From Verrucomicrobiaceae bacterium (GTDB taxonomy: Bacteria; Verrucomicrobiota; Verrucomicrobiia; Verrucomicrobiales; Verrucomicrobiaceae): a stretch of 64,000 nt of DNA. The first letter of the stretch is position 1. Each line of letters begins with the position of its first letter. The stretch is taken from contig JAIXYN010000053.1 in the NCBI GenBank assembly GCA_027490195.1, positions 1-64,000 on the forward strand. The letters run 5' to 3'. Shown here piece by piece: positions 34,094 through 45,674 of the stretch. The position numbers and the translations under genes are program-made. The notes under the pieces were generated by a model. The model had not been told where the DNA came from. It searched no databases and was given only the letters and a program-made list of their open reading frames with translations.

Positions 34094-34124
34094 TTGAAAA
34101 AAAACCGAACTTCCCCGCCAAACT

Positions 34125-34299
34125 TGGCCCGGCGGCTGCTCTATCACTCACTCAGTTGGGGCGAGAGCTTCACAAAAATTTCTCGGGTTCGCTCGAGGAA
34201 ACACACAACGAGCTGGAGAGTCGCTTCATGGTTGGGACTCTCTGGTCACCTAAAGGCCCGGAAGGATTTTGGTTGGGTCCTTCCGGGCCGAGTTGTTTT
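34125..34299 (+). ncRNA. Putative structured RNA, copy 1 (attenuator-like)
   Basis: 175 bases with an ungapped partner at 34496-34670. Helices in copy 1: a GNRA-capped hairpin (34157-34162 with 34167-34172, loop GAGA); a UUCG-capped hairpin (34179-34187 with 34192-34200); GAGAGTC/GACTCTC (34216-34222 with 34236-34242); and a 12-bp 3' stem (34255-34266 with 34278-34289) followed by GAGTTGTTTT. The 5' GGCCCGG (34126-34132) repeats the left arm of the 3' stem and could compete for its right arm, as in attenuators. Copies differ mostly by changes that keep pairing, including two double compensations in the 3' stem. The class is not one I recognise. Confidence 0.75.
34255..34299 (+). terminator. 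Terminator-like hairpin of RNA copy 1
   Basis: A 12-bp perfect stem GGCCCGGAAGGA/TCCTTCCGGGCC with an 11-base loop (TTTTGGTTGGG), followed by GAGTTGTTTT. The U run is interrupted, so termination strength is uncertain. Confidence 0.65.
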
Positions 34300-34480
34300 C
34301 ACACATCTCGGCAGCTTCCAAATGCAGACCTCAAAGGCATGGTGCGAAGCCTGAAGTGACCGACAAATCTTGGGATGATCTAAAATCGTTCTTGGGGAGA
34401 CATACCTACCCCACCACACACAGACGTCTGCCTTTAATGTCCATCTGCCCAGCAGAAGAGAAAAATGATTCTGGTCCGCA

Positions 34481-34486
34481 TAAAAT
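34481..34486 (+). promoter_or_regulatory. Possible -10 element for RNA copy 2
   Basis: TAAAAT lies 10 bases before the first base of copy 2, close to the spacing expected for transcription starting at the conserved RNA. No good -35 is seen at 16-18 bases upstream. Confidence 0.3.
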
Positions 34487-34495
34487 GCGCGAGAC

Positions 34496-34670
34496 TGGCC
34501 CGGCGGCTGCTCTATCAGGAACTCGGTTGGGGCGCAAGCTTCACAAACATTTCTTGGGTTCGCCCGGGGAAACACACAACGAGCTGGAGAGTCACTTCAT
34601 GGTTGGGACTCTTTGGTCACCTAAAGGCCCGGGAGAATTTTGGTTGGGTTCTCCCGGGCCGAGTTGTTTT
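34496..34670 (+). ncRNA. Putative structured RNA, copy 2 (attenuator-like)
   Basis: The second 175-base copy, with no indel relative to copy 1. The GNRA loop changes from GAGA to GCAA and stays GNRA. The UUCG loop is kept while its stem swaps C-G, U-A and G-U pairs for U-G, U-G and G-C. In the 3' stem an A-U becomes G-C and a G-C becomes A-U. Read as protein, most differences fall at codon position 1 and change residues, which argues against a coding origin. It ends about 105 bases before the cyclophilin ATG, so it could lie in that gene's leader. Confidence 0.75.
34626..34670 (+). terminator. Terminator-like hairpin of RNA copy 2
   Basis: A 12-bp perfect stem GGCCCGGGAGAA/TTCTCCCGGGCC with the same 11-base loop as copy 1, followed by GAGTTGTTTT. 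Confidence 0.65.
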
Positions 34671-34774
34671 AAGACGGCAAGAACAGACGCGGCCAAGCCG
34701 TAGCCGGAGGCGTTCATTTTGATCATTGCAAAACAATGGCTTCGTGGCTCATTCCCCTCCCTACCAACCCAAAT

Positions 34775-35362
34775 ATGAAATCAATCGCACCGACTCTTGC
34801 CGCTCTCGTCATCACGTTTGCTGGTCTGACCGGCACAACCCCAGCCCAAACCGTGAGTGAAGCCAAACCAGTGAAAATCGTGATGGAGACCTCCAAAGGC
34901 ACCATCGAAATCGAACTCGACGCCGCCAAGGCCCCCATTTCTGCCGCTAATTTTGTGAAGTATGTGAAGCAAGGCTTCTACGACGGCCTGATCTTCCACC
35001 GCGTCATCCCCGGCTTCATGGTGCAGGGCGGCGGCTTCACCCCGGACATGCAGCAGAAGGAGCCTGCCGACAAAATCCAAAACGAAGCCAAGAACGGCCT
35101 CAAGAACGTCAAAGGCACCCTCGCCATGGCCCGCACACCGGACCCCCACAGCGCCAGCTCCCAGTTCTTCATCAACCTCAAGGACAACAGCTTCCTCGAC
35201 TATCCAGGACAGGATGGCTGGGGCTACTGCGTCTTCGGCAAGGTGACCAAAGGCATGGACGTCGTCGATGCCATGGCCACCGTCGAAACCGGTCGCAAAG
35301 GCCCGCACGGTGACGTCCCAGTGGAGCCGATCGTCATCAAGAGCGCCAAGCTCGCGGAATAA
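34775..35362 (+). CDS. Exported cyclophilin-type peptidyl-prolyl cis-trans isomerase
   Basis: 195 residues; the ATG at 34775 opens a signal peptide (MKSIAPTLAALVITFAGLTG). The mature domain is a bacterial cyclophilin: VKIVMETSKGTIEIELDAAK, FYDGLIFHRVIPGFMVQGGG (catalytic Arg in FHRV), ASSQFFINLKDNSFLD, and WGYCVFGKVTKGMDVVDA. It would speed proline isomerisation during folding of exported proteins. The two structured-RNA copies lie directly upstream and may influence its expression. A clean terminator follows at 35393. Confidence 0.95.
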   Translation: MKSIAPTLAALVITFAGLTGTTPAQTVSEAKPVKIVMETSKGTIEIELDAAKAPISAANFVKYVKQGFYDGLIFHRVIPGFMVQGGGFTPDMQQKEPADKIQNEAKNGLKNVKGTLAMARTPDPHSASSQFFINLKDNSFLDYPGQDGWGYCVFGKVTKGMDVVDAMATVETGRKGPHGDVPVEPIVIKSAKLAE

Positions 35363-45023: not shown

Positions 45024-45674
45024 ATGAAGCCTAACCCACCCCTCATTCGCGTCCAAGGTAGCGGCCAGGTGGCCTCCACCCCGGACACCGTCATCCTCGG
45101 TCTCGAACTCATCAGCGAACACCGCGACTATGCCAAGGCCACGGCCGATGCGGGCCGCAAGCTGGAGCTTCTGCGTGCCTCACTCCCCAAGGCCGAACTC
45201 ACCGCCGACCAGCTCAAAACCGACTCCTTCAACGTGGGTGTCGAACGCGACTACGAGACAGGTACCTACATCTTCCGTGGATACAGCGTGAAGCACCGCC
45301 TGAGCCTGCGCCTCCCCTTTGATCCCGCCCATTTGGGCCGGGTCCTCGCCGCCGTCACCTCTTCCCATGCCAAGGCCAGCCTCTCCCTCAGCTTCACCGT
45401 CGCCGACCCCGAAGCCGTCAAGCGCCGCGTCCTGGAAGCCGCCGTCCACAACGCCCGCAGCCGCGCCGAACTCATCGCCACCGCCGCAGGCCAGAAACTC
45501 GGCCCCATCCACAGCATCGACTACGGCCACACCGAAATCCACATCCGCTCAGAGCCACACTCACTGAATACAATGTGCGCAGCAGCCCCCATGGGCATGG
45601 ACCTCGACCTCAACCCCGCCGACATCGACTCCGAAGACACCGTCCTCGTCGCCTGGGAACTCGAAGCAGCCTAA
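45024..45674 (+). CDS. SIMPL-domain (DUF541) protein
   Basis: 216 residues, one SIMPL domain. Family text: IRVQGSGQVASTPDTVILGL, YAKATADAGRKLELLRASL, and the C-terminal LIATAAGQKLGPIHSIDYGH. SIMPL proteins form ring oligomers; some are periplasmic, but no signal peptide is seen here, so it is probably cytoplasmic or starts elsewhere. The role is unknown. Neighbours do not help. Confidence 0.88.
   Translation: MKPNPPLIRVQGSGQVASTPDTVILGLELISEHRDYAKATADAGRKLELLRASLPKAELTADQLKTDSFNVGVERDYETGTYIFRGYSVKHRLSLRLPFDPAHLGRVLAAVTSSHAKASLSLSFTVADPEAVKRRVLEAAVHNARSRAELIATAAGQKLGPIHSIDYGHTEIHIRSEPHSLNTMCAAAPMGMDLDLNPADIDSEDTVLVAWELEAA

Follow-up and report, generated by a model that had tools for sequence, protein, structure and literature searches.

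A tandem pair of conserved structured RNAs in Verrucomicrobiaceae with sigma-54-type promoters and a proposed function in trans

The sponge RNAs CsrB and RsmZ carry a repeated GGA motif in hairpin loops and titrate CsrA, and the genes of the Qrr small RNAs (sRNAs) of Vibrio are dispersed. As described in PMC10162802 and PMC2680268, the Qrr sRNAs are sigma-54-dependent, and some species carry more than one of them, V. harveyi having five. Two further sRNAs are treated in PMC9731577, namely GlnZ, which is released from the 3′ UTR of glnA, and NrsZ of Pseudomonas, a stand-alone RpoN-dependent sRNA. The RNA that we describe here is like Qrr in its several copies and in its apparent sigma-54-dependent control, which in our case is read from promoter sequence; it is unlike Qrr in that it has no match in Rfam, no LuxO-type activator or site was found, it carries twin UGGUUGG loops and its copies lie in tandem. 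GlnZ is, by analogy, a precedent for the form in which our RNA module sits in the 3′ UTR of a sigma-54-promoted mRNA (genomes G055, G096 and G057), but the host gene there is porin-like and not glnA, and in most genomes studied here the RNA has a gene of its own. This stand-alone form resembles NrsZ, whereas for our RNA control by nitrogen is a possibility. With CsrB and RsmZ the RNA shares a repeated loop motif, which is however UGGUUGG instead of GGA and occurs at two sites only. As regards homology in sequence to Qrr, GlnZ or NrsZ, the comparison went through Rfam, where the RNA has no match.

The window analysed is a stretch of 64,000 nt of contig JAIXYN010000053.1 from a Verrucomicrobiaceae bacterium, and by source genus and source family we mean the genus of this bacterium and the Verrucomicrobiaceae. 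It contains two direct repeats of ~175-180 nt each, with a start-to-start distance of 371 nt. A preliminary description of this DNA had reported two gapless 175-base copies with fewer than 20 differences, and the alignment of 34125-34299 with 34496-34670 is indeed gapless, with 16 of 175 positions differing. The substitutions listed at that time are also present, i.e. the two double compensations in the 12-bp stem (A-U to G-C and G-C to A-U), the change of the tetraloop from GAGA to GCAA and the replacement of C-G, U-A and G-U by U-G, U-G and G-C in the UUCG stem. As for the extent of the copies, the duplicated RNA stands while the proposed 5′ end does not; as each repeat opens with ~26 nt of promoter DNA, the transcripts are predicted to have approximately the ends given in Table 1. 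The covariance model R1 matches copy 1 at 34152-34303 and copy 2 at 34523-34674. Both DNA and covariance-model searches place two copies of the RNA in its own genome, a third DNA match being merely 17 bases long.

Table 1. Positions of the RNA genes, their parts and neighbouring genes within the window
Feature	Position	Strand	Basis or remark
Sigma-54 (-24/-12) promoter of RNA copy 1, TTGGCCCGGCGGCTGCT	34124..34140	+	GG-N10-GC; own-genome pattern match
RNA copy 1, predicted transcript	34151..34299	+	Start inferred from -12 element, end from U-tract
Hairpin 1, GNRA loop (GAGA), close to predicted 5′ end	34158..34171	+	Helix 1, 97.8% of cells paired
UUCG hairpin, long-form homologues only	34179..34200	+	Helix 2, 98.1% of cells paired; lacking in 19/54 rows
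Hairpin 2; loop 34223-34235 = GCUUCAUGGUUGG, with UGGUUGG	34213..34245	+	Helix 3, two-sided change in 7/10 pairs
Terminator hairpin; loop 34267-34277 = UUUUGGUUGGG, UGGUUGG again	34255..34289	+	Helix 4, 99.8% paired; terminator scan
Sigma-54 promoter of RNA copy 2, CTGGCCCGGCGGCTGCT	34495..34511	+	GG-N10-GC; own-genome pattern match
RNA copy 2, predicted transcript	34522..34670	+	Predicted ends; model R1, terminator scan
Copy 2 hairpin 2; loop 34594-34606 = ACUUCAUGGUUGG	34584..34616	+	Fold, alignment, covariation
Copy 2 terminator hairpin, loop UUUUGGUUGGG	34626..34660	+	Fold, covariation, terminator scan
Cyclophilin gene (PF00160), downstream, outside RNA gene	34775..35362	+	Leader ACCAACCCAAAT-AUG has CCAACC; possible target
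SIMPL-domain gene, possible target in source genome only	45024..45671	+	16-nt perfect complement, start region versus copy 1 hairpin 2

We propose that each repeat constitutes a complete sRNA gene, in which a sigma-54 promoter is followed, after ~12 nt, by the start of a ~150-nt RNA with four hairpins, and in which the loop of the intrinsic terminator would double as a functional loop. Firing of sigma-54 by an enhancer-binding activator, probably in a response of the nitrogen or starvation type, would lead to accumulation of the RNA, and UGGUUGG, single-stranded in two loops, would then pair in trans with translation start regions that contain CCAACC, most likely with the outcome that translation initiation is blocked. 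Tandem copies (1-3 per genome) would provide a higher dose, and in three genomes from two other genera the module would be processed out of a porin-like mRNA that has a sigma-54 promoter and contains the module as its 3′ UTR. The reading as a whole, a sigma-54-dependent trans-acting sRNA that pairs with CCAACC leaders, appears to us moderately probable. Expression, the nitrogen signal, processing, pairing and repression are the steps that we infer. If correct, the family offers a set of target leaders that can be tested, together with a conserved seed, a type of promoter and a likely signal.

Homology, structure, promoter motif, terminator and both genomic forms can be read from the DNA itself, and we regard it as virtually certain that both repeats are a conserved non-coding RNA. 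On the + strand folding of both copies beats 200 of 200 shuffles (z -3.57 for copy 1 and -2.75 for copy 2), and the - strand of copy 2 shows no excess folding (z -1.26, with 22 of 200 shuffles equally good). A covariance model, proposed as a check in the preliminary description, finds homologues beyond this locus, and over 54 distinct copies the four helices are paired in 98.0% of cells and have two-sided changes in 17 of 36 pairs, a count reached by none of 500 shuffles; in the terminator hairpin (helix 4) 6/12 pairs are changed on both sides. No slid helix register came near the observed covariation, a comparison that is biased in favour of the observed structure, as this was drawn from the same 54 sequences. 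Unguided, RNAalifold recovers three of the four helices and misses the UUCG stem, which is absent from 19 rows. When distant members are added, two-sided changes are seen in 23/36 pairs of an alignment that is model-fitted and thus leans towards the structure. Both loops are nearly invariant, reading (A/G)CUUCAUGGUUGG in hairpin 2 and mostly UUUUGGUUGGG in the terminator, and UGGUUGG is unbroken in 53/54 copies for each of the two; in distant genera the motif persists in both loops although its flanks vary. Within the source genus the RNA takes two size forms, a long one of ~150 nt, seen in the window, which includes the UUCG hairpin, and a short one of ~120 nt that is devoid of it.

The RNA copies very probably carry a sigma-54 promoter, judging from the element that precedes them. 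GG-N10-GC is present in 56/56 complete copies, with TTGGCCYG-N4-CTGCT as consensus, and the published -24/-12 motif is given in PMC5874634 as YTGGCACGrNNNTTGCW, with GG at -24, GC at -12 and ten bases between; compared to this motif the copies have equal spacing and deviate in three letters, at -22 (C instead of A), at -21 (C or T) and at -15 (C instead of T). Since the promoter stretch was part of the homology by which the 56 rows were obtained, and the rows of the logo were chosen by pattern, promoter conservation alone is no independent test. Independent support from sequence is provided by eight additional copies obtained with a promoter-free model, five of which (L126-L130) have the element upstream, at 26 nt in three and at 78 nt in L126; the element of L127, TTGGTCCGCTTGCTGCT, overlaps the beginning of the match. 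The same assignment accounts for the GGCCCGG at the 5′ end of the repeats, which had been suggested to form an antiterminator, a proposal that we reject: this stretch is the -24 element, and in short-form copies the terminator arm becomes GCCCCGG (L030, L033, L039, L040) while the 5′ stretch stays TTGGCCTG. Upstream of the promoter lies an A+T-rich block from -57 to -39, and no clear motif for an activator site was seen from -107 to -58. Sigma-70-like sites numbered 0 in the kilobase, against 0.5 expected by chance, which is little informative.

A relaxed promoter pattern occurs 13 times in the own genome (7 Mb), compared to twice for the reversed control. The 13 sites belong to the two RNA copies, rpoN, an ammonium transporter gene, MscL, a further gene (L226) and seven positions inside longer open frames, all or part of which chance may explain; from the beginning of the pattern to the start codon the distance is 60 nt for rpoN, 54 nt for the ammonium transporter and 79 nt for MscL. 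It is because the ammonium transporter shares this promoter type that we link the RNA to nitrogen, and we see the chances for and against a nitrogen-type signal as balanced. RpoN is encoded in 63/68 genomes of the family, in the own genome at C18:162874. As observations in their own right, the site of the ammonium transporter, TTGGCACGCCCATTGCT, is near-consensus (L225 1501-1555; G000:C18:194013), and rpoN has a sigma-54-like promoter of its own (L224 1501-1561; G000:C18:161881), the sequence of which suggests autoregulation. The RpoN DNA-binding domain is matched twice in each of G033, G017, G018, G042 and G041.

Homologues of the RNA are widespread in the source family. A DNA search of 96 genomes, including the own genome, gave matches in 45, comprising 44/48 of the source genus and one of another genus, and a profile search of 47 loci yielded 57 copies, of which 56 are complete and the 57th is truncated by a contig end. 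With a covariance model of the RNA part, devoid of promoter columns, 53/68 genomes of the family and 5/11 of its genera were matched, once in 42 genomes, twice in ten and three times in one (G029); in G015 and G031 the two matches are on separate contigs and may be assembly effects. Neither the DNA search nor a broader second model matched anything in four members of the source genus, G021 (52% complete), G034 (87%), G043 (91%, with 8% contamination) and G030 (95%). In a phylum sample of 288 genomes all 5 matches of the RNA-only model fall inside Verrucomicrobiaceae, and the broader model, applied to 386 genomes of the order, returned the same 53 plus five marginal matches beyond the family (E 1.7e-4 to 0.007). 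The latter were rejected, as by eye they are plain G+C-rich hairpins or unrelated and TGGTTGG is absent; the same holds for three weak matches in genomes of the family (E 0.04 to 0.5). A further match, in G126 (E 0.63), is weak too. Three weak antisense R1 matches on palindromic stems (E 0.0005 to 0.007) were kept out of the alignment by the E-value limit. The exact terminator-loop pattern, which misses copies that deviate from it, occurs in 42 stretches of the GTDB collection (84,980 genomes), all titled as bacteria of the source phylum, such as Prosthecobacter, Brevifollis and Verrucomicrobiaceae; the cultured species Brevifollis gellanilyticus is among the carriers. Three of these stretches (L187, L211 and L215, from two MAGs) are labelled Akkermansia muciniphila, and on these RNA-bearing MAGs, the genus members G036 and G031, the labels look wrong. 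The preliminary description did not recognise the class of the RNA, and Rfam (release 15) likewise has no match, either at the gathering score over 64 kb or, for 1 kb, with E values up to 5; a narrow full-text literature search, mostly without subscription papers, returned no described sRNA from the source phylum. Occurrence in 53 genomes of the family, covariation and the lack of an Rfam match thus favour, at the level of sequence, the earlier suggestion of a structured RNA and trans-acting RNA pair. Among the long-form copies the tree hints at one old duplication with exchange afterwards.

In three genomes from two other genera a porin-like gene with a sigma-54-type promoter has the RNA as its 3′ UTR. 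At these loci (L123 of G096, L124 of G055 and L125 of G057) there is no promoter element upstream of the RNA itself; the two-hairpin core lies directly 3′ of the stop codon, with the first UGGUUGG 34-42 nt past it, and the host gene, which encodes 253 aa in G055, is preceded by TTGGCCCGCATCATGCT or TTGGCCCGTGACCTGCT. We call this gene merely porin-like because its match to Gcw_chp (PF09694), a name that we rejected, scores 20.2 against a curated cut-off of 24, and NCBIfam gave no match. TGGTTGG is absent from the 3′ UTRs of the other 27 of 30 porin-like loci scanned, the homologues numbering more than 30 in all. Sigma-54-like sites were also noted upstream of porin-like homologues that have no UGGUUGG 3′ UTR, i.e. 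TTGGCCTGATTCATGCTT, TTGGCCTGATTTGTGCTT and TTGGCACGGTCCCTGCTT at L145, L146 and L153 (G052, G102 and G024, respectively). With the same type of promoter on the stand-alone and the 3′-UTR forms, the family offers a route to the study of their interconversion.

Candidate targets were sought in 864 kb of the own genome (the window and L233-L272) with 609 called starts, which are approximate as they stem from a simple gene caller. At -35 to +12 CCAACC was seen 40 times versus 3.8 expected, which ranks it first among 3654 non-ATG hexamers, and it peaks directly before ATG (10/609 starts, compared to 0-6 for the remaining 14 arrangements of these letters). In the same 864 kb motifs resembling Shine-Dalgarno (SD) sequences are not enriched at starts (16 versus 24 in the control window). 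The loop of hairpin 2, hereafter loop 1, is the exact complement of the start region CCAACCAUGAAG. Complement runs of at least 10 nt to loop 1 are found at 10 starts versus a shuffle mean of 1.8, where the letters around ATGAA were shuffled; as the maximum in 300 shuffles is 14, this measure alone is not beyond chance. Cyclophilin leaders are A/C-rich and by eye 12/16 of them contain CCAACC. Two proposals were abandoned: the SIMPL-domain gene as a conserved target, as the 16-nt match is absent from 7 other homologous copies shown, and secretion as a common theme of the CCAACC genes, for which signal-peptide enrichment is not significant (P 0.11, crude rule).

The enrichment of CCAACC does not clearly track the RNA, and for this reason the target step stays an inferred one. 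In two sampled RNA-less genomes the motif was counted 4 versus 1.4 and 6 versus 1.4 times, an enrichment of ~3- and 4-fold, and RNA-bearing genomes of other genera are little above this (7 versus 1.3 in G055 and 6 versus 1.6 in G056); smaller samples gave 8 versus 1.3 for long-form loci, 4 versus 1.3 for short-form loci and 2 versus 1.0 for other genera. The density of CCAACCATGA in the source genus is 5.70 per Mb with the long form, 4.88 with the short form and 4.86 in the four members without a match, and in other genera it is 3.60 with the RNA versus 2.85 per Mb without it (P 0.11); tracking of RNA presence by CCAACC is thus not significant by this measure. Enriched without the RNA and at densities that do not separate the groups, CCAACC may therefore be an RNA-independent leader feature. 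It appears to be a feature of leaders in this family which the RNA could make use of, and as a possible start-region signal it is of interest apart from the RNA. We would give even odds to action by pairing of UGGUUGG with leaders.

The best-surviving alternative is that the RNA acts as a sponge for a protein that recognises UGGUUGG loops, so that protein and not mRNA would be bound. The presence of the same motif in two loops, on well-conserved stems whose sequence is free to covary, would fit such a function. Each RNA however offers only two sites, and as GGA is absent from the loop sequences tabulated for the homologues, a CsrA-type sponge is disfavoured and the protein would not be CsrA in its known form. 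Moreover, the CUUCA that precedes UGGUUGG in loop 1 is conserved as well and complements an AUGAAG start, which would be needless for a protein motif, and we hold a sponge to be rather unlikely. A more far-reaching alternative is that the family lacks Shine-Dalgarno sequences, that CCAACC before AUG is the start signal and that the sRNA is a global switch which mimics the reader of this signal. Given that CCAACC is enriched and SD motifs are not, the RNA could be a mimic of the ribosomal end or of whatever factor reads this hexamer. The 3′ end of E. coli 16S rRNA is GGUUGGAUCACCUCC, and the UGGUUGG loops together with the linker that joins them, which is similar to G(A)UCACC (GGAUCACC in L128, GGAUCAC in L123 and L124, GGUCACCU in the window), are reminiscent of it at the sequence level. 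If this were true, leaders with CCAACC would be titrated or masked throughout the genome in a sigma-54 response; we consider it improbable.

Returning to the trans-acting sRNA that we favour, its genomic surroundings speak for a stand-alone gene and not for a cis-regulator of cyclophilin, and action in trans is in our estimate highly likely. The alternative of a leader or attenuator that acts in cis on the gene downstream, put forward in the preliminary description as a tandem regulator of cyclophilin, would be in keeping with part of the loci, counted here by eye. A peptidase M16 gene (PF00675) is found upstream of one set of long-form copies, in some genomes with a small membrane protein between, and in 16/18 loci of this set the RNA is on the same strand as, and upstream of, a cyclophilin gene, which in L064 is several genes off; short-form copies precede a xylose isomerase homologue in 15/21 loci, often with a HAD-type hydrolase (PF00702) before, and the copy in G100, from another genus, likewise precedes xylose isomerase (82% identical). 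The downstream genes nevertheless vary among clades, being glycine-cleavage-H-like (PF01597) in five other long-form loci and, where copies face convergent genes, reversed (L075, L087), so that homologues precede unrelated genes and not cyclophilin alone. The copies also close with a terminator hairpin of their own, and three genomes have this RNA as a 3′ UTR. Cis-regulation of cyclophilin is therefore very unlikely. A mobile or repetitive element (REP-like), or just an elaborate terminator, is hardly credible: palindromic stems and tandem copies might suggest it, but copies number 1-3 per genome and are syntenic within clades, viral contigs have zero matches to the exact terminator-loop pattern, and the loops belong to the most conserved parts. 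That the element encodes a short protein or peptide, as open frames spanning both copies and an AUG within loop 1 would allow, is a negligible prospect, since stem changes compensate and, as had been argued earlier, no protein frame is conserved, homologue indels of one to several bases and of a ~30-base block disrupting every frame. Finally, a block like AATCAATGGCTTCGTGGCTCATT is located at 34715-34775, before the cyclophilin start, and recurs in altered form in the 16 genomes compared.
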